NCBI RefSeq assembly: GCF_003172915.1
Contig: NZ_QGKU01000033.1
Location: forward strand, 144,971 to 208,970
Source: Meridianimarinicoccus roseus
GTDB taxonomy: Bacteria; Pseudomonadota; Alphaproteobacteria; Rhodobacterales; Rhodobacteraceae
DNA length: 64,000 nucleotides
Direction: 5' to 3'
A program made the translations under genes and the position numbers. Shown here in pieces: positions 21,814-30,151 of this stretch. The notes under the pieces are model-generated. The model was not told the DNA's origin and did no database searches. It was given only the letters and a program-made list of their open reading frames with translations. The stretch's first letter is position 1. Each line of letters opens with the position of its first letter.

Positions 21814-21910
21814 GCGCGCGCTGTGCTCAAATCGGTCATCCCGTCGTTCGAGTCGGAGTACGCCCGCGCCACCGCCCGGCAGCGGCCACGGGCGCACCGG
21901 ACAGGTCAGG

Positions 21911-22897
21911 TCAGGTCGGTTCGGACATGTCCACCGGCACTTCCAGCGTACCGGCCTTGATCGCCGCGCGCGCTTCTTCCATCGCGGGGATGGCGTCGGC
22001 GGGCACCATGCTTTCGGTATAGAGGATGTCGTTGCCGCCCTCCTTCATCAGGCAGTAGGGCGTGTAGTCGCGCGCATTCGGGCCACCCGCCTGCTTGTCC
22101 GCGACCGCTGCATCCAGCAATGGGCGGAAGTACCACATCGCGTTGGCGAAGACGGTTTCAGGGTAGCGCGGTGTGTAGTCGATCAGCGATCCGATCGCCT
22201 TGATGCCCCGTTCCTTCGCGGCGTCCGCCGTACCGATCCGTTCACCGAACAGGATGTCTGCCCCAGCGTCGATCTGCGCCAGACCCGCCTCGCGGGCCTT
22301 TGGCGGGTCGAAGAAGGTGCCGATGAAGCCGATCAGGTGTTCGGCATCGGGGCGCACCGCATCCACGCCGGCGCGGAAACCGTTGATCAGCAGGTTCACC
22401 TCGGGGATCGGGATGGCGCCGACCGACCCGAACTTGCCGGTCTCGCTCATCCGGCCGGCCAGCATACCGGCAAGGTAGGCCCCTTCGTGGTTCCATGTGC
22501 CGAACGTGCCGAAATTGTCGCCCGAGGGTTGGCCGCTCGATCCCATCAGGAAGGCGACCTGCGGATAGTCCTCCGCGATCTGGCGGATTTCGCGTTCAAC
22601 GGCATAGGCCTCTCCGACGATCAGGTCCACGCCGCTTTCGGCGTATTCACGGGCCGCGCGACCATAATCGGTCGCGGCGATGCCTTCCGAGAACACGTAT
22701 TCGATCGCGCCGTCCGACGCAGCTTCGACCATCGCGCCATGCAGGCGGGAATTCCACGCGTTCTCCACCGGGGAGGCGTGCAGCCCCGCCACCTTGAAGG
22801 TCGCCTGCCCGATCACCGGCGGCGCAGCCAGCACGAAGGTGCTTGCAGCGGCGCCTTTCAGGATGGTGCGGCGGGTCGGCCGGATCAGTGTTGCCAT
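21911..22897 (-). CDS. BMP-family ABC transporter substrate-binding protein, second importer
   Basis: This 328-residue BMP-family binding protein has a Tat-like signal (RPTRRTILKGAAAS followed by VLAAPPVIGQA). Mature-region blocks are GIAATDYGRAAREYAESGVD, TFGTWNHEGAYLAGMLAGRMSE and GSLIDYTPRYPETVFANAMWYF. The last is typical of nucleoside/purine-type BMP binders. The start at 22897 is set by the signal peptide. It lies 28 bases downstream of cytosine deaminase, in the order enzyme, binding protein, ATPase, permease, permease. The ligand is probably a pyrimidine (cytosine-like) base. Confidence 0.92.
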   Translation of the reverse strand: MATLIRPTRRTILKGAAASTFVLAAPPVIGQATFKVAGLHASPVENAWNSRLHGAMVEAASDGAIEYVFSEGIAATDYGRAAREYAESGVDLIVGEAYAVEREIRQIAEDYPQVAFLMGSSGQPSGDNFGTFGTWNHEGAYLAGMLAGRMSETGKFGSVGAIPIPEVNLLINGFRAGVDAVRPDAEHLIGFIGTFFDPPKAREAGLAQIDAGADILFGERIGTADAAKERGIKAIGSLIDYTPRYPETVFANAMWYFRPLLDAAVADKQAGGPNARDYTPYCLMKEGGNDILYTESMVPADAIPAMEEARAAIKAGTLEVPVDMSEPT

Positions 22898-22925
22898 GGT
22901 CTGTCTCTCCTGTTGGTCTGCTGTG

Positions 22926-24215
22926 TCATTGCGATGCGGGGGCATAGGCGGCTGGGTCCACCGAAGCCGGGCGCCCCGGCAGATCGAGGGTGGCCACCTG
23001 CGGCGGGCTTGCGGCGATCACTTTGCCTGCGCGGATCACATGGAGGCGGTTGGCACGCAGGCGGATCGCCTCGATCGGGTCGGCGGCTTGCAGGATGACC
23101 ATGTCGGCACGATTGCCCACCGCGATCCCGTAACCGTCAAGCCCGATGGCACGGGCGGCGTTGACCGTGACGGCGTCGAAGCACTGTGCGATGGCGGTAC
23201 GGGATGTCATCTGCGCCACATGAAGGCCCATCGATGCGACTTCCAGCATGTCGCCGGACCCGAGCGAATACCACGGGTCCATCACGCAATCATGCCCGAA
23301 GGCGACGTTCAGCCCGGCCGCCATCAGTTCCGGCACACGCGTCTGGCCGCGCCGCTTGGGATAGACGTCATGGCGGCCCTGCAATGTGATGTTGATGAGG
23401 GGGTTCGCGACGACCTGAAGGTCAGCCTCCGCCATGAGCGGAATAAGCTTGGACACGTAATAGTTGTCCATCGAGTGCATGGAGGTGAGGTGCGAACCGA
23501 CCACCCTTCCCTGCAGCCCATACCGCAGGGACTGCGCCGCAAGCGTTTCCACATGGCGCGAATGGGGATCGTCGCTTTCATCGCAATGCAGATCCACCGG
23601 CAGGCCCCGGTCTGCGGCGATCCGGCACAGCGCTTCGACCGAGGCCGCGCCGTCTGCCATCGTCCGTTCGAAATGCGGGATGCCGCCCACGACGTCCAGC
23701 CCCATGTCGAGCGCACGGTCGAGAAGCTCCACGGCGCCGGGGCTGCGCAGGTAGCCATCCTGCGGAAAGGCCACGAGTTGCAAGTCGATGTAGGGGCGGA
23801 CCTGTTCTCGAACGGCGATCATCGCCTCGGCGGTAAGTAGGCGCGGGTCGGACACGTCGACATGGCTGCGGATCGCAAGCAGCCCCTTCGAGGCGGCAAG
23901 GTCGCAATATCGCAAGGCGCGATCGACCAGCCCGTCGAAAGTCAGAATCGGCTTCAATTCGCCCCAAAGCCCGATGCCTTCCAGCAAGGTGCCTGACCGG
24001 TTCATCCGAGGCATGCCAAGCGACAGTGTCGCGTCCATGTGGAAGTGCGGATCCACGAAAGGGGGACTGACAAGCCGACCATGAGCGGCGATGCGGGTGC
24101 CCGCCTCGGCGGCAACGCCGGGTTCAAGCGCTGCAATGCGCCCGCCTGATACCGCTATGTCCATGTTTCGCCGCCCGTCCGGCAGCGTCGCCCCTTCCAC
24201 GATCAGATCGAACAT
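22926..24215 (-). CDS. codA: Cytosine deaminase (CodA-like amidohydrolase)
   Basis: This 429-residue metal-dependent amidohydrolase tracks E. coli CodA closely along its whole length. It shows the N-terminal PPFVDPHFHMDATLSLG metal site (HxH), IRSHVDVSD, DLQLVAFPQDG, DLHCDESDD (His/Glu proton shuttle), GSHLTSMHS, NPLINITLQGRHDVYPKRRG and AFGHDCVMDPWY (Asp metal ligand). It deaminates cytosine to uracil and ammonia; related enzymes accept isoguanine or creatinine. The start at 24215 gives the expected length. It is the first gene of the second BMP importer operon, so import and deamination of the base are coupled. Confidence 0.9.
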   Translation of the reverse strand: MFDLIVEGATLPDGRRNMDIAVSGGRIAALEPGVAAEAGTRIAAHGRLVSPPFVDPHFHMDATLSLGMPRMNRSGTLLEGIGLWGELKPILTFDGLVDRALRYCDLAASKGLLAIRSHVDVSDPRLLTAEAMIAVREQVRPYIDLQLVAFPQDGYLRSPGAVELLDRALDMGLDVVGGIPHFERTMADGAASVEALCRIAADRGLPVDLHCDESDDPHSRHVETLAAQSLRYGLQGRVVGSHLTSMHSMDNYYVSKLIPLMAEADLQVVANPLINITLQGRHDVYPKRRGQTRVPELMAAGLNVAFGHDCVMDPWYSLGSGDMLEVASMGLHVAQMTSRTAIAQCFDAVTVNAARAIGLDGYGIAVGNRADMVILQAADPIEAIRLRANRLHVIRAGKVIAASPPQVATLDLPGRPASVDPAAYAPASQ

Positions 24216-24368
24216 GCCTGTCCCTGCCCTTCCACGCTGCTGTCGGGGGTTCCGACGTGCAGCATCATCCGCCCGGCCACGGTATTGCAACCCTGCCCCA
24301 TCTTGCGGGCGCCCGATTCTTCATCGGCGCACATAAATGCAGCAATCTCTGCGCCGCACCGCCCCAGA

Positions 24369-25421
24369 CTAGAGACCCAGCATCGCCCGGTTCGCCGCAT
24401 CGTCGGTTCCGGCCCCGGCAAAATCATCGAACGCCTTTTCGGTCACGCGGATGATGTGATCCCTCACGAAGGCAGCGCCCTCCCGCGCGCCGTCCTCGGG
24501 GTGCTTCATGCAGCATTCCCATTCGACCACGGCCCATCCGTCGAAGCCGTATTGGGTCAGCTTGGAGAAGACTGCGCCGAAATCGACCTGCCCATCGCCG
24601 GGGCTGCGGAACCGTCCGGCGCGGTTCACCCACGACTGGTAGCCGCCGTAGACACCCTGCCGCCCAGTTGGGTTAAACTCGGCGTCCTTGACGTGAAACA
24701 TCCCGATCCGCTCGTGATATATATCAATATTATCAATATAATCAAGAGCTTGTAAGACATAGTGAGATGGGTCGTACAGCATTCGTGCACGGGCGTGGCC
24801 CTGCACGCGTTCCAAGAACATCTCGAAGCTGATGCCGTCGTGCAAATCCTCGCCCGGGTGGATTTCATAGCAGATGTCGACGCCGCAGTCTTCGGCGTGA
24901 TCCAGCAGCGGGCGCCAGCGGCGCGCCAGTTCGTCGAACGCCGCCTCGACCAGACCTGCCGGGCGCTGCGGCCACGGGTAGACATAGGGCCAAGCCAGCG
25001 CCCCGGAGAAACTCGCCATCGCGGTCAGGCCGAGATTGGCCGACGCGCTCAGCGCCTTTTTCACCTGGTCCACCGCCCAGGCCTGCCGCGCCGCCGGATT
25101 TCCATGCACCGATGGCGCCGCGAACCCGTCGAAGGCGATGTCATAGGCCGGGTGCACGGCCACCAGCTGTCCCTGAAGATGGGTGCTGAGTTCGGTGACG
25201 GTGATGCCATGTTCGGCAGCCTGGCCCTTGAAGGTGTCGCAGTAGTCCTTGGATCGCGCCGCTGCCTCCAGATCGAACAGGCGCGAATCCCAACTCGGCA
25301 CCTGAACGCCCGCATAGCCGCATTCTGCCGCCCAATGGGTGATGGCAGGCCAGGAATTGAACGGCGCGTCATCCCCGGCGAATTGCGCCAGGAACAGCCC
25401 GGGGCCCTTGATTGTCTTCAT
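24369..25421 (-). CDS. Sugar phosphate isomerase/epimerase-like TIM-barrel protein
   Basis: This 350-residue xylose-isomerase-like TIM barrel shows metal-site segments ICYEIHPGEDLHDG (E186), LYDPSH (about 216-220), MFHVKDAEFNPTG and WAVVEWECCMKHPEDG. Such proteins isomerise or epimerise sugars and polyols and normally sit in LacI-regulated sugar ABC operons. Here the transporter and dehydrogenase partners are missing and only a LacI gene lies next to it. Codons for residues 217-236 are strikingly AT-rich (TTA, CTT, ATA, ATT, TAT) because of a threefold 9-base repeat. The reading frame is unbroken and the encoded peptide still looks family-like. The exact substrate is unknown. Confidence 0.87.
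   Translation of the reverse strand: MKTIKGPGLFLAQFAGDDAPFNSWPAITHWAAECGYAGVQVPSWDSRLFDLEAAARSKDYCDTFKGQAAEHGITVTELSTHLQGQLVAVHPAYDIAFDGFAAPSVHGNPAARQAWAVDQVKKALSASANLGLTAMASFSGALAWPYVYPWPQRPAGLVEAAFDELARRWRPLLDHAEDCGVDICYEIHPGEDLHDGISFEMFLERVQGHARARMLYDPSHYVLQALDYIDNIDIYHERIGMFHVKDAEFNPTGRQGVYGGYQSWVNRAGRFRSPGDGQVDFGAVFSKLTQYGFDGWAVVEWECCMKHPEDGAREGAAFVRDHIIRVTEKAFDDFAGAGTDDAANRAMLGL
24719..24745. repeat. Three tandem 9-base AT-rich units inside a coding sequence
   Basis: Plus-strand units ATATATCAA, TATTATCAA and TATAATCAA follow one another. On the coding strand they read as TTGATNATA-like units encoding LDY, IDN and IDI. They form the core of a roughly 50-base island of very low GC in an otherwise GC-rich gene. 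Confidence 0.7.
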
Positions 25422-25457
25422 GTCTTTCCCTCCCTCAGTGGTTGCGCACCGGCCTTG

Positions 25458-26486
25458 TCACGGCAGGTTTTCGCGCAGGATGATCTCGATTCTGATGCGT
25501 TCCTGCGATGCAAGGATTTCGCGCCCATCGCAGCGGGCCTGCAGGACCCGGATAGCACTACGCACCAGGTGGCCGGTGTTCTGCGTGATGATCGCATCCA
25601 ATTCACCAGCCAGAAGCGCGGCGCGCGTGAGGGGCGTCAGTTCATGGGCGATGACCACGAGTCGCGCCAGACGTCCCTTCTCGCGGAGCGCATCGATCAG
25701 GGCGCCATTGCCGGTGGACAGCGAATAGACGCCGACGATATCGGACCTTGCCGCAAAGGCATTTTGCAGGATCGCCGCCATGCGCTGCGGGTCGTCATGG
25801 GCCTCTAGCGTAGGAAGGCAGTGCACCGCAGGAAACTCGGTGCCGATCAGGCTGTCGAAACCGAAGCGACGTTCAAGGCTGTCGCGCGCCCGGATCGAAC
25901 TTGCGACCACCAGTACCGGCCCTCCGGATGGGGGCAGGAACCGGCCCATCAGCCGGGCTGCGGTGCGCCCGGCCGCGTCATTGTCGATCCCGACGAAATG
26001 ATCGCGGTCGGATTGCGGTTGGTCCGCGACCAGCGCCACGACCGGGGTACCGCCGCGGCGAAGCCGGGCCACCGCATCGCGCACTTGCGGACTTTCCGGC
26101 GCCATCACTGCCACCCCGTCGACCTTGCCCGCGCCAAGAGCGACAAGCGTGGCGGCAAGCGCATGGGGATCATGCACCGGCACATGACACACCTCAAGCA
26201 TCACACGGTCGGTCAACTGGCTTTCGCGGGCCTCCTCCAGCGCGGAAAGGATGGTTCCAACGAACCGGCTCTGGCCGTCTGGCAGAAGAAAGGCGAAGCG
26301 GTAAACCCGGCGCCGGGCAAGGTTGGCCGCGCCCTGGTCACGCACATAGCCGATGGCGCGGATCGCTTCCTCGACACGTGCAACGGTTTGCTTGCGCACC
26401 CCCGGCCGCGCGTTCAAGACCCGGTCCACCGTTGCGAGGCTCACACCGGCATGCCGCGCGATATCGTGCACAGTGGGTCGTACCAT
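25458..26486 (-). CDS. LacI-family transcriptional regulator
   Basis: This 342-residue LacI-type regulator has an HTH at residues 1-55 (TVHDIARHAGVSLATVDRVLNARPGVRKQTVARVEEAI) and a periplasmic-binding-protein-like effector domain (residues 60-340). Family members with the VDRVLN signature usually regulate sugar or polyol ABC operons. The gene is upstream of and in the same direction as the isomerase-like gene (36 bases apart). It is the last metabolic gene before the partition genes. A TTGA-N6-TCAA palindrome 46 bases before the start is a possible autoregulatory operator. Confidence 0.9.
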   Translation of the reverse strand: MVRPTVHDIARHAGVSLATVDRVLNARPGVRKQTVARVEEAIRAIGYVRDQGAANLARRRVYRFAFLLPDGQSRFVGTILSALEEARESQLTDRVMLEVCHVPVHDPHALAATLVALGAGKVDGVAVMAPESPQVRDAVARLRRGGTPVVALVADQPQSDRDHFVGIDNDAAGRTAARLMGRFLPPSGGPVLVVASSIRARDSLERRFGFDSLIGTEFPAVHCLPTLEAHDDPQRMAAILQNAFAARSDIVGVYSLSTGNGALIDALREKGRLARLVVIAHELTPLTRAALLAGELDAIITQNTGHLVRSAIRVLQARCDGREILASQERIRIEIILRENLP

Positions 26487-26532
26487 CGCGGACAGCGCCC
26501 CCTTCCCTCTTGCGCAAGGTTAGATCGCCTCG

Positions 26533-26626: not shown

Positions 26627-27718
26627 CTAGCCATCCAGCCCCTGAAGAAAGCGCGCGACGGCATCTTCCAGCTTCTTGCGCTCCAACGCCGAGAAGTCAG
26701 CGTCACCGCGCAACTCCAGCCGCCCTTGCGAAGCCGTACACTTGATCGGACCAAGCGCGCTTTGCACTTGGAACGTTGTCCGCGCGGGCCGCGCGGTCGC
26801 TGGCTTGCGCGTTGAACGGTTCCCCGCGGGGAACCGCTTTTCAGACTCGGCGTCTGCTTCACAGAACTGTCGCAGCAACTCAAGCTCCTGTTCCGCGGTG
26901 CGCGCACCGTTTCCAATCAGAAGGGCCTCGAGTTCATGCAAGCTTTCCGGTTCGTCCTCGAGCTTTTTGCGCAAGCTCAAGCCAAGCGCGCGCGGGATCG
27001 CGTTAGGGTGCTCCAGTCGCGGGCCAACCATCGCAAGCATCTTTGCAAAAGCGCGGATATAACTGCGCTTCTGCTTGCCGGCCGAGCCGAAGAGCGTCTG
27101 CACAGCCTCGTCCAGCGAGGTCGCCGATGTCTCCACGTCGTCGGCATACGCCTGCGCCAGCGCAGCCATCTCCGCGAAGCTGACATCGGACCGGATCAGG
27201 TTCTCATCCACCATCCGGCGATACAGCGTGTCGAGGGTTTCGCCCTGCTCCATCACGACAGCCGGGATCTCCGCATATCCGCCGCCGGGCGTGCTCTCGT
27301 CTAGACGGCGATAGGCCGACAAGCGCCGCAAGCCCTGCACCAGCTCAAACCCGTCATCCGACCGCTCGACTTGGATCGGATTTGACAAACCGATCGCGCG
27401 GATACTGTCGCACAGTTCCTGCAGGCCCTCGGGATCAACCTCCCGCCGGTCGCGGGTCAACTTGCTCGTGCGGATACTGTCCAGCGGAACCCGCTGCATG
27501 ACAAGCCCCTGCCCCTTTAGCCGCACGAATTCATGAGCAAGCGCGTCGTTCTCGTCCCGGATTGCTTTCTCGGCCTCGGCACGTGCACGCAATGAATCCG
27601 CATTTTCTCGCACAGCGCTGGCCATCGGCCCCCTGCGCACGTCCGTGATGGGTTCGGGCTGAGGCGCTGCCGCCTCCTCGGGCATCTCGATGTCGAACAT
27701 CCTGCGCTTGCGGCTCAT
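26627..27718 (-). CDS. parB: Plasmid partition protein ParB (RepB-like)
   Basis: This 363-residue ParB-family centromere-binding protein has the N-terminal ParB/sulfiredoxin-like domain (about residues 75-170: VPLDSIRTSKLTRDRREVDPEGLQELCDSIRAIGLSNPIQV and ELVQGLRRLSAYRRL, the ParB 'box II'-like arginine patch). A KorB/HTH region follows (VSFAEMAALAQAYADD and QKRSYIRAFAKML). The 5' end overlaps parA by 4 bases, the standard par operon order. A 20-base perfect palindrome resembling a RepB binding site lies within this gene at 26817-26836 and encodes part of the segment around FPAGN. It should pair with ParA to segregate the replicon. Confidence 0.93.
   Translation of the reverse strand: MSRKRRMFDIEMPEEAAAPQPEPITDVRRGPMASAVRENADSLRARAEAEKAIRDENDALAHEFVRLKGQGLVMQRVPLDSIRTSKLTRDRREVDPEGLQELCDSIRAIGLSNPIQVERSDDGFELVQGLRRLSAYRRLDESTPGGGYAEIPAVVMEQGETLDTLYRRMVDENLIRSDVSFAEMAALAQAYADDVETSATSLDEAVQTLFGSAGKQKRSYIRAFAKMLAMVGPRLEHPNAIPRALGLSLRKKLEDEPESLHELEALLIGNGARTAEQELELLRQFCEADAESEKRFPAGNRSTRKPATARPARTTFQVQSALGPIKCTASQGRLELRGDADFSALERKKLEDAVARFLQGLDG
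26817..26836. other. parS-like palindrome inside parB
   Basis: CGGTTCCCCGCGGGGAACCG is a perfect 20-base palindrome. Its core GTTCCCCGCGGGGAAC fits the GTTNNNNGCNNNNAAC pattern of alphaproteobacterial RepABC-type parS sites. The same 16-base core occurs in parA (28024-28039). It lies in coding sequence for RFPAGNR. Confidence 0.75.
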
Positions 27719-29025
27719 GCCTTGTCCTCCATCTCATCCCACGCCTTGATCAACGTCTCGCGAAACTCGCCATAGGCTCGGTCGAATGTTGCCCTCGCTC
27801 GCCGCCAGGTCTCACGAGTCATGTTGCGGTAGTCGATTTCATAGACCGAACTGAGGAAACGTCCGGACTGTTCCACTGCACGTGTCAGCTCGATCGGGTG
27901 CTCCGCCAGGCGGTCGCCGAACACCTTTCCGAACGCATCATACATCGCGCGATGCAGGTCGTTGCCAGGTTCAAAACGGGTCAGAAGAAAGCGCACATCC
28001 AGAAACGCTTTTGGGGATCCGGCGTTCCCCGCGGGGAACGACACCTGGCTGAACCCGGCGTCCAGATCTTCCAAAGCCTCGCTCAACTGGCCGATGAAAC
28101 TGGTGGTGCTGTCATACTCCCAGTAGCCAGGACCAGACGGAACATAGAGTACGTCCGCCGCAAAGACGGCGTTCATTGACTGATAGCCAATCGCAGGCGG
28201 ACAGTCGAAAATGATCAAGTCATAGCTGTCGTCGGGAATCTGGTCGAGATAGCGAGCGACCGCCGCGAAGAAGGACCAATCAGGATTTAGGTGCCGATAC
28301 TGCGCCGACGCGAATTCAACGAAGGCCGCATTGGCACAAGACGGAATGATATCGATGGTCGGCCAGCTCGTCGCCTGAATGAAATCCGCGACGCGAAGAT
28401 CCTCCAGACCCATGTCCCGAACCGACGCGGGCAGACGCCTCTGGGGCAGGGCGGTTCCACTGGCAGCACCGGTTACTGCACTGTTCATCCGGTCCGTCTC
28501 CCGGATAAGATCACGCGCCATGATGCCCCAGACGGTGTGATCCTCGCTCACATCGCTCAGCCCCATGGAATGGCTCAGGGTCGCTTGCGGATCGAAATCC
28601 ACACACAGAACACGGTAGCCATCCAGCGCCGCAGCGTGGGCGAAGTGCAGCGCTACCGTAGACTTGCCGGCCCCGCCCTTGAAGTTGGCGATTGCAGCAC
28701 GGATTGCGCGCTTGCCCTGTGGCCTGGGCGGAAGCAGCGTCTTGCGGTTAATCTTCATACGACGGCGCAACTCGTTGATCTCCTCAAGAGAGAACCAACG
28801 CTGACGGCCATCCTCCTCAACCTCGCCGGCAGGCAGGCTGGGATCCGCCGCCAGCCTCCCGCGGAACGTCGACTGGTTGACCCTGAATATCAGTTCCGAC
28901 ACCTCCCATGAGGAAAACCGGCGCAGTGTCTTCTCCAGTTCCGGTGAATAGGTCTGCCTGCGGATCCAACCCTGAAGCTTCAGCGATTGTGCCTGCAGCG
29001 CCTGCAAGTCCTGATAGGTGTACAT
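27715..29025 (-). CDS. parA: Plasmid partition ATPase ParA (RepA-like)
   Basis: This 436-residue type Ia ParA has an N-terminal DNA-binding extension of about 105 residues (MerR-like HTH features, WFSLEEINELRRRMK). A deviant Walker A motif, FKGGAGKST, follows at residues 115-123, then the A' motif VLCVDFDPQATLS and Walker B-like YDLIIFDCPPAIG. It drives segregation and, through the N-terminal domain, probably represses its own operon. A second copy of the parS-like palindrome lies in this gene at 28023-28040, also encoding FPAGN. The gene is divergent from the replication initiator with a 436-base intergenic region that probably holds the origin. Confidence 0.95.
   Translation of the reverse strand: MYTYQDLQALQAQSLKLQGWIRRQTYSPELEKTLRRFSSWEVSELIFRVNQSTFRGRLAADPSLPAGEVEEDGRQRWFSLEEINELRRRMKINRKTLLPPRPQGKRAIRAAIANFKGGAGKSTVALHFAHAAALDGYRVLCVDFDPQATLSHSMGLSDVSEDHTVWGIMARDLIRETDRMNSAVTGAASGTALPQRRLPASVRDMGLEDLRVADFIQATSWPTIDIIPSCANAAFVEFASAQYRHLNPDWSFFAAVARYLDQIPDDSYDLIIFDCPPAIGYQSMNAVFAADVLYVPSGPGYWEYDSTTSFIGQLSEALEDLDAGFSQVSFPAGNAGSPKAFLDVRFLLTRFEPGNDLHRAMYDAFGKVFGDRLAEHPIELTRAVEQSGRFLSSVYEIDYRNMTRETWRRARATFDRAYGEFRETLIKAWDEMEDKA
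28023..28040. other. parS-like palindrome inside parA
   Basis: CGTTCCCCGCGGGGAACG is a perfect 18-base palindrome with the same 16-base core as the site in parB. It is 1.2 kb from that site and again encodes FPAGN on the coding strand. It fits the RepB-type parS consensus GTTNNNNGCNNNNAAC. Confidence 0.75.
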
Positions 29026-29461: not shown

Positions 29462-30151
29462 ATGCTGGCCACGCGACCATTAAGGCAGGGTTCTGCCTCC
29501 AAGAAGTACGACGTGTTGACGGCTCTCGGCGTCCATGCATGTGCGGGAAGTAAATTCCAGCAACGGCTTATCCTACGGTTCATGACCGCGATCACGGCCA
29601 GATACAATTGGCAGCGCGACGAACTGACGATGGGTAGAACGGAACTCGCTCGCCTGTGGCAAGTCGACGAACGCACAGTGAAACGGGAGCTGGCCAAATT
29701 GAAGGCATGCGGCTGGTTATGCGTGAAACGGCCGGCGGCGCGGGGCAGGGTGACAGCCTATTCCATCGACTGGGACCGCATCCTGTCAGATACCCGCCCC
29801 TGCTGGGACTATGTGGGGTCTGACTTCACAACCAGACTGTCCACACTGGCGGGTGCGGCTCAACCGGCCGACCAGCCGGACCGTACTGTCATTGCTTTTC
29901 CGGCAGCCGCTTCTCCAAGCGACACCGAATGGGACCATGCTCTCGCGCTTCTGCACCGCGCGGACCCCGCCTTTCACGCCAATTGGTTGGCCAGCGTCCA
30001 GCGCCGGGCTCTCAGCCAAGGCATCCTTGAACTCGAAGCGCCAACCGCGTTCCAGGCCGAATACCTCAACACTCATGCAGGGGCCCGGATCACTCGCGCG
30101 GTCCAAACCTTCGCGCCACAGGTTCACAGGGTGATCGTTCGTCCGGCATAA
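29462..30151 (+). CDS. DnaA-like plasmid replication initiator (Rhodobacterales type)
   Basis: This 229-residue protein has an N-terminal winged-helix region (about residues 10-100: KYDVLTALGVHA, LRFMTAITARYNWQRDELTMG and ARLWQVDERTVKRELAKLKACGWL). A linker with ITAYSID-like sequence follows. The C-terminal DnaA_N-like domain (about 155-225) contains WDHALALLHRADPAFHANWL and LELEAPTAFQAEYLNTHAGARIT. This combination matches the 'DnaA-like' replicases that define one class of Rhodobacterales plasmids. The order initiator, divergent parA-parB, is the one expected for that class. It lacks the AAA+ domain of chromosomal DnaA, so it probably recruits the host replication machinery at the adjacent iterons. 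Confidence 0.88.
   Translation: MLATRPLRQGSASKKYDVLTALGVHACAGSKFQQRLILRFMTAITARYNWQRDELTMGRTELARLWQVDERTVKRELAKLKACGWLCVKRPAARGRVTAYSIDWDRILSDTRPCWDYVGSDFTTRLSTLAGAAQPADQPDRTVIAFPAAASPSDTEWDHALALLHRADPAFHANWLASVQRRALSQGILELEAPTAFQAEYLNTHAGARITRAVQTFAPQVHRVIVRPA

Follow-up and report, generated by a model that had tools for sequence, protein, structure and literature searches.

Twin parS-like palindromes within the parA and parB genes of a probable DnaA-like-I plasmid of Meridianimarinicoccus roseus

Introduction

Why should one and the same perfect palindrome be present twice in a partition operon, each time within the coding sequence of a partition gene? This question is raised by a stretch of 64,000 nucleotides from Meridianimarinicoccus roseus (Rhodobacteraceae; contig NZ_QGKU01000033.1, positions 144,971 to 208,970), hereafter called the window, in which the 16-mer GTTCCCCGCGGGGAAC is found both in parA, encoding a ParA/RepA-type ATPase, and in parB, encoding a protein with a helix-turn-helix domain. 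The compatibility of plasmids in multi-replicon marine bacteria is thought to depend on the pairing of ParB with its centromere, parS. An initial annotation of this DNA regarded the twin palindromes as a mobile or selected centromere site. Here, by comparing the module with its relatives, we come to the conclusion, with a probability of about 0.9, that they are parS centromeres of a probable DnaA-like-I plasmid, predicted to be bound by its own ParB and embedded in the genes of the partition proteins.

Results

The twin palindromes are found only in the par module

The identity of the two 16-mers and the extension of the parB copy to a perfect palindrome of 20 bases (26817-26836) were both verified in the sequence, and the parA copy was found to be perfectly palindromic over 18 bases (28023-28040). 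It is also true, as the initial annotation pointed out, that both copies are read in the same frame, TTC CCC GCG GGG AAC, giving the peptide FPAGN in both proteins. The palindrome is open in all three reading frames, and therefore a frame shared by two genes has a chance of about one in three, so that no shared peptide is needed to account for it. Outside the site, the flanks of the parA and parB copies are unlike each other.

In the whole genome (4,294,927 bases in 69 contigs), the twin copies are the only places matching the 16-mer with at most two mismatches; the palindrome is thus not common across the genome, a finding that would have spoken against the initial annotation, and at this threshold no copy lies upstream of parA in this module. 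The control pattern, read backward, gave one place in the same genome. When three mismatches were allowed, the window contained three matches vs. 0.84 expected, a number reached in 3 of 100 shuffles, so that it is the exact identity of the copies that stands out. In plasmid pSC52_3 of Rhodobacteraceae bacterium SC52 (273,781 bases), which is the closest complete relative, the same pair of sites is present at the corresponding points of parA and parB, and no third one exists if two mismatches are allowed.

A scan of 22 genomes with the pattern CTTCCCCNNGGGGAAG (half-site CTTCCCC; the module type is unread for 6 of the 22) gave 20 places in six genomes, 17 of them on the module's own contig, either near parAB or at a contig end, and none for the backward control. 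Among the genomes of another module type, only one (G270, CTTATCC type) has a CTTCCCC place, and this place lies in its module. In the sequences scanned, the palindromes thus appear confined to the par region, as would be expected of a parS centromere.

The same half-site usually recurs within a module

Relatives were collected as 80 named loci (the best 80 of 571 confirmed relatives) and as matches at E 1e-120, which were found in 89 of 296 genomes and yielded 75 stretches, one listed place (G032:C71) being left out. The 185 rows, including the window, were reduced to 164 by dropping identical ParA+ParB pairs. The group of the window, class I, comprises 144 rows, or 142 modules with a full ParA (window included) after two with a cut ParA were dropped; 12 of them, having no repeated half-site, were left unlabelled, and three of the 130 labelled modules have no full ParB, leaving 127 for tests that involve this protein. 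Class II comprises 20 rows, 19 of which were scored, as L133 has no ParB match.

A second site sharing the half-site of the parA site was found in 116 of the 121 modules whose parA site is intact, vs. a mean of 42.8 and a maximum of 58 over 1000 shuffles of partners, and this occurs while the half-site sequence itself differs from module to module. In the 130 labelled modules, the own half-site is present at the parA position in 116, inside parB in 82, within 1500 bases upstream of parA in 82 and downstream of parB in 91; parA and parB sites occur together in 73. Of the 93 sites inside parB, 41 lie in the N-terminal linker, 19 in the C-terminal linker, 13 in the last codons, 12 in the loop near residue 160 and 7 at other places, and one belongs to an unaligned row. 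All linker sites are in the FPAG frame, and the sites in the loop and at the gene end are in another frame. As the parB sites shift among linkers, loop and gene end, the peptide is not an inserted motif; rather, a DNA site is overlaid on tolerant stretches of the protein.

This distribution bears on the best surviving alternative, namely that the palindromes are ParB operators which only regulate parAB transcription, as a roadblock or a repressor site, with the working centromere located elsewhere on the replicon. The twin sites do lie within the transcribed operon, and the 82 labelled modules with a copy upstream of parA would suit an operator as well. However, no other copy exists in the genome or on the complete pSC52_3, so that the scans brought up no alternative centromere of this specificity, and in the 15 class II modules whose commonest half-site was that of class II, all its sites are located at the parB end or downstream. 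Moreover, the two roles are compatible with each other: ParB bound at the sites may dampen parAB transcription in addition to serving segregation. We therefore regard a purely regulatory role as improbable.

The parA position is conserved as DNA rather than as peptide

At the parA position homologous to FPAGN, all six half-site base pairs are intact in 121 of the 142 class I modules (the central dinucleotide being free and small shifts allowed). With the position fixed, 120 of 142 are palindromic, vs. 10.5 expected if the same peptide is recoded with synonymous codons according to the module's own codon usage. The peptides read at this position are FPAGK (43 modules), VPAGT (29), LPTGK (25), FPAGN (13), FPTGK (10) and rarer others.

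One might suppose that FPAGN is a functional peptide of both ParA and ParB, the palindrome simply following from codon bias, all the more so as many modules have [FLV]P[AT]G[KNT] at the parA position. Redrawing of codons, however, produces less than a tenth of the palindromes observed, the peptide varies between modules in step with sites outside the genes, and the parB copies of relatives lie at different places and in different frames of ParB. Selection at the protein level is thus very unlikely; because other modules read FPAGK, VPAGT or LPTGK, we consider FPAGN a by-product of the DNA site. Relatives that keep the usual peptide with codons breaking a palindrome arm, to which the initial annotation drew attention, do occur in the recoding analysis but are rare (12 of 142 parA sites). 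Its view that one short peptide was inserted in two unrelated proteins is not supported: the site in parA is conserved in the family, its peptide following the DNA variant, and relatives have the parB copy at other places of parB or downstream of the gene.

The half-site co-varies with two residues of ParB

In the AlphaFold2 model of the window ParB, the helix-turn-helix comprises helices 181-193, 202-209 and 215-234 (block pLDDT, the predicted local distance difference test score, of 88-93 there), so that the predicted third helix, the recognition helix, begins with residue 215. The region aligns with the DNA-bound domain of SopB and the operator-bound domain of KorB, as ranges of a fold alignment rather than residue by residue; when the DNA-binding region of ParB alone was searched by sequence against the PDB, no ParB was retrieved.

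With the outer base taken as the majority over a module's sites, the identity of residue 215 matches the outer-base class in 127 of 127 class I modules tested. Tyr215 accompanies outer C in 75 of 75; outer G (GTTCCCC) goes with Lys215 in 10 and Arg215 in one of 11; TG (TGTCCCC) with Arg215 in 25 of 25; and outer TT with Pro215 in 15 and Ala215 in one of 16. The neighbouring residue is Gln216 in 90 of the 94 modules whose six-base half-site has C as its third base, and is other than Gln in all 33 modules with another base in this place.

The class II modules, which took no part in deriving the rule, conform to it: outer G is combined with Lys215 in 19 of 19 modules with ParB, and residue 216 varies with the half-site, being Met in all 16 modules with TAACCC, Thr in both with TTACCC and Val in the single one with TTACCG. 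The same holds for the named plasmids, pDSM14862_b having GTTCCCC with Lys-Gln and the co-resident pDSM14862_d having GTAACCC with Lys-Met.

On the ParA tree, the eight half-site labels need 12 changes (minimum 7), while the outer-base class and residue 215 need nine changes each and their joint state ten, so that nearly all changes coincide. If only the 17 ParB columns that change at most 15 times are considered, the runner-up to residue 215 has one third of the outer-base changes in common. Taken together, these data argue that the sequence of the palindrome is matched to the DNA-binding domain of the cognate ParB through residues 215 and 216, as a parS site should be.

Co-resident modules differ in their half-sites

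The genome of M. roseus contains a second module on contig C68, whose ParA is 63% identical and which belongs to the class of pDSM14862_d (DnaA-like-II type), i.e., class II. It bears GTAACCCGCGGGTTAC twice, at the parB end and just downstream, and none in parA; the pattern GTAACCCNNGGGTTAC, with at most one mismatch, occurs twice in the genome, both times at this module. All 12 genomes with two matches carry one class I and one class II module (the class I match of G135 being a fragment), and the co-resident half-sites differ in 10 of 10 pairs where both are readable. On contig C40 of the same genome, another ParB-like gene is flanked by three copies of GTTTCGCGCGCGAAAC, which may represent a further candidate parS set.

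The par operon and the replicon type

The coordinates of the operon and of the sites are collected in Table 1. The parB gene overlaps the end of parA by four bases, and the order in which a replicase candidate with a DnaA_N-like domain diverges from parA-parB is the same in the window, NC_023136 and NZ_CP084953. The window ParA is 79-97% identical to the 80 named loci and 58-64% to class II loci, placing it in the group I clade. The scores lie under the cut-offs of the RepABC equivalogs, with 38.5 vs. 201.5 bits for TIGR03454 (RepB) and 199.5 vs. 348.45 bits for TIGR03453 (RepA). NC_023136 of Leisingera methylohalidivorans (285,395 bases) is taken here to be pMeth_A285, a plasmid called DnaA-like I (PMC3910554), and for Sulfitobacter indolifex, pDSM14862_b (NZ_CP084953) and pDSM14862_d are listed in a table of PMC9025767 as DnaA-like-I and DnaA-like-II, respectively. 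As judged by these comparisons, the replicon is probably a DnaA-like-I plasmid of Rhodobacterales.

Table 1. Features of the par region discussed in the text (window positions)
Feature	Position	Strand	Description and basis
parB	26627..27718	-	363 amino acids, ParB_N and helix-turn-helix domain; PF02195 E 3.7e-08
parA	27715..29025	-	436 amino acids, ParA/RepA-type ATPase; PF13614 AAA_31 E 4.8e-26; TIGR03453 199.5 bits, below cut-off 348.45
DnaA-like replicase candidate	29462..30151	+	229 amino acids, divergent from parAB; PF11638 DnaA_N E 3.9e-05, 23.7 bits, just under cut-off 24.6
parS-like palindrome in parB	26819..26834	.	Same 16-mer as in parA; ParB residues 296-300, FPAGN; inside predicted disordered linker 291-309
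parS-like palindrome in parA	28024..28039	.	GTTCCCCGCGGGGAAC; ParA residues 330-334, FPAGN; position conserved across class I, recoding test
ParB predicted disordered linker, residues 291-309, hosting the parB site	26792..26848	-	pLDDT <50; length varies in relatives
ParB predicted recognition helix, residues 215-234	27017..27076	-	AlphaFold2 model; fold alignment with SopB-DNA and KorB-operator domains
ParB K215 and Q216 codons	27071..27076	-	Proposed to read the outer base (K215) and the inner second and third bases (Q216); co-variation with parS half-site

Discussion

Taken together, the conservation at the DNA level, the recurrence of the same half-site within a module, the co-variation with residue 215 and the fit of class II lead us to regard the twin palindromes as, most likely, parS sites. 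Across related plasmids, their letters change in step with the ParB residues predicted to read them. We suggest that a ParB dimer loads at each palindrome and that the loaded ParB would spread over the operon, whereupon ParA would move the ParB-bound complexes, thereby segregating the plasmid copies. The sites could reside inside the par genes because the parA position and the ParB linkers tolerate the encoded residues, and a site within the genes of its users would be inherited together with the ParB that reads it.

Of the proposal that the palindromes are a mobile or selected centromere, the second part is thus favoured by the DNA-level conservation, the confinement to the par module and the match to ParB; mobility is apparent only as a turnover of the parB and flanking sites, not as that of a transposing element. 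A mobile or repetitive extragenic palindromic (REP)-like repeat inserted into both genes would account for the identical 16-mers and for the variable position of the parB site among relatives. Yet there are no copies outside the par module in the own genome or on pSC52_3, the flanks of the two copies are dissimilar past the site, the parA position is conserved in the family and the sequence tracks the ParB recognition helix, all of which renders this explanation highly improbable. Coincidence in G+C-rich coding DNA, where CCCCGCGGGG-like strings are indeed commoner, can practically be dismissed, since about 0.006 exact copies are expected per genome from base composition (the window G+C of 0.669 being applied to the whole genome) and the half-site nevertheless recurs in nearly all modules with an intact parA site.

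Several observations weigh against the centromere interpretation or restrict its evidence. The parA site is broken or lost in 21 of the 142 class I modules, and pDSM14862_b, a named DnaA-like-I plasmid, has none. In L032 and L040 the parA site is a degraded GTCCC type, while their other sites (one and four, respectively) are GTTCCCC; the degraded sites are possibly remnants from before a switch of specificity. The parB copy of a close relative, L007, has a mismatch in one arm, and three of the 20 CTTCCCC places, situated on a different contig (G275:C1), have a non-palindromic centre. Moreover, the outer base is mixed within the module in 40 of 130 cases, and the rule for residue 216 has four exceptions in the 94 TTC/GTC modules. 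The match of 127 of 127 was scored on the very rows from which the residue-base rule was derived, and for this reason the results for class II and the named plasmids carry more weight. Three fast ParB columns (57-63 changes) equal residue 215 in the number of outer-base changes they share, which we ascribe to the sheer number of their changes. Many rows are related to each other, and the strict independent-pairs test on well-supported branches left one to three pairs per comparison (sign test p 0.5-1), too few for significance, none of them being in the opposite direction. Finally, the ParA model is too poor (mean pLDDT 54.4, with blocks of 30-33 around residues 321-340) for the parA loop to be placed in the fold.

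With these points considered, a more detailed scenario seems to us rather probable as a whole, if clearly less so than the assignment of the sites as parS. According to it, an ancestral centromere was built into the parA frame of DnaA-like plasmids, and copies arose in the linkers, loop and gene end of ParB. Specificity would depend on a code of two residues with which the ParB recognition helix begins. Residue 215 would read the outer base, with Lys or Arg specifying G, Tyr specifying C, Pro or Ala specifying T and Arg specifying TG; residue 216 would read the second and third bases, with Gln specifying TC, Thr or Val specifying TA (in TTA) and Met specifying AA (in TAA).

The 2011 paper that defined the DnaA-like plasmid type reportedly described conserved palindromes in the module as likely centromeres. 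Both named DnaA-like-I plasmids resemble the window in gene order and in homologous ParA and ParB. In addition, NC_023136 has the palindrome at the parA position, of TGTCCCC type, and differs in a long array of sites downstream of parB; pDSM14862_b differs in that its GTTCCCC sites lie upstream of parA and, in two copies, within parB. Unlike either of them, the window carries exactly two sites, both within coding sequence. The array of NC_023136 (L192, 51391-58296) comprises 13 copies of TGTCCCCGCGGGGACA, of which one deviates in an end base; they are mostly 55-136 bases apart, and further copies are present in parB, in parA and upstream of parA.

The 16-mer also fits the RepB-type parS pattern GTTNNNNGCNNNNAAC given by the initial annotation. 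RepABC replicons are similar to the window in having palindromic parS near or inside the partition genes, and positive selection of parS within downstream open reading frames has been proposed for them, with Rhizobiales parS located at the 5' end of repB (PMC9040568). They differ from the window, where the RepB model score is far below its cut-off and the neighbouring replicase candidate is DnaA_N-like; in the covered part of that article, a conserved parS inside a parA homologue is not described. In 26 RepABC RepB loci (L193-L218), one residue of the DNA-binding region seems to be Lys or Arg where the outer base is G, and Glu where it is C, in most loci with a clear palindrome; the register against the window ParB is unsure, and the pattern was not used here.

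A parS inside parB is already known, as exemplified by parS-359 of Bacillus subtilis (PMC4442127) and parS1 within parB1 of Streptomyces SCP1 (PMC13245405); these share with the window the location within the parB gene but belong to other replicons, and the parts of the two sources covered do not mention a twin site in parA. A term search of PMC7022226 found no mention of parS inside parB. As to specificity, the work on ParB/Noc switching demonstrated experimentally the role of four positions (173, 179, 184 and 201), R173 contacting guanine 1, and the Caulobacter ParB recognition helix is described as entering the major groove of parS (PMC7383237). The likeness is that a few residues in or near the helix-turn-helix set the DNA preference; the difference is that residues 215 and 216 of the window ParB are proposed from co-variation only. 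Neither a conserved parS inside parA of DnaA-like-I plasmids nor the 215/216 rule was met in the open-licence literature covered, mostly at the level of titles and the beginnings of abstracts, and a search there for the exact palindrome strings gave no relevant match, only unrelated plant work.

The family thus offers about 130 natural ParB-parS pairs in which the site often overlies coding sequence and co-varies with two residues, which makes the specificity rule directly testable by point mutants, and it shows how a centromere can persist for long inside a protein-coding gene. If the proposed reading is true, the reader and its target share genes, so that an exchange of par genes would swap the two together, and two codons could suffice to tell the compatibility group of a plasmid.

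Two further observations concern the location of such modules. A DnaA-like-I module of genome G208 (L187) is located on a contig of 5.56 Mb (C1), suggesting chromosomal integration or a fused assembly. In the window, genes resembling a BMP-family substrate-binding protein and an amidohydrolase, as recognized by eye (21911-24290), have counterparts next to parB of pSC52_3 (L221), where they are annotated and follow one another in the same order, and the region 21900-26500 has two further genes between them and parB.

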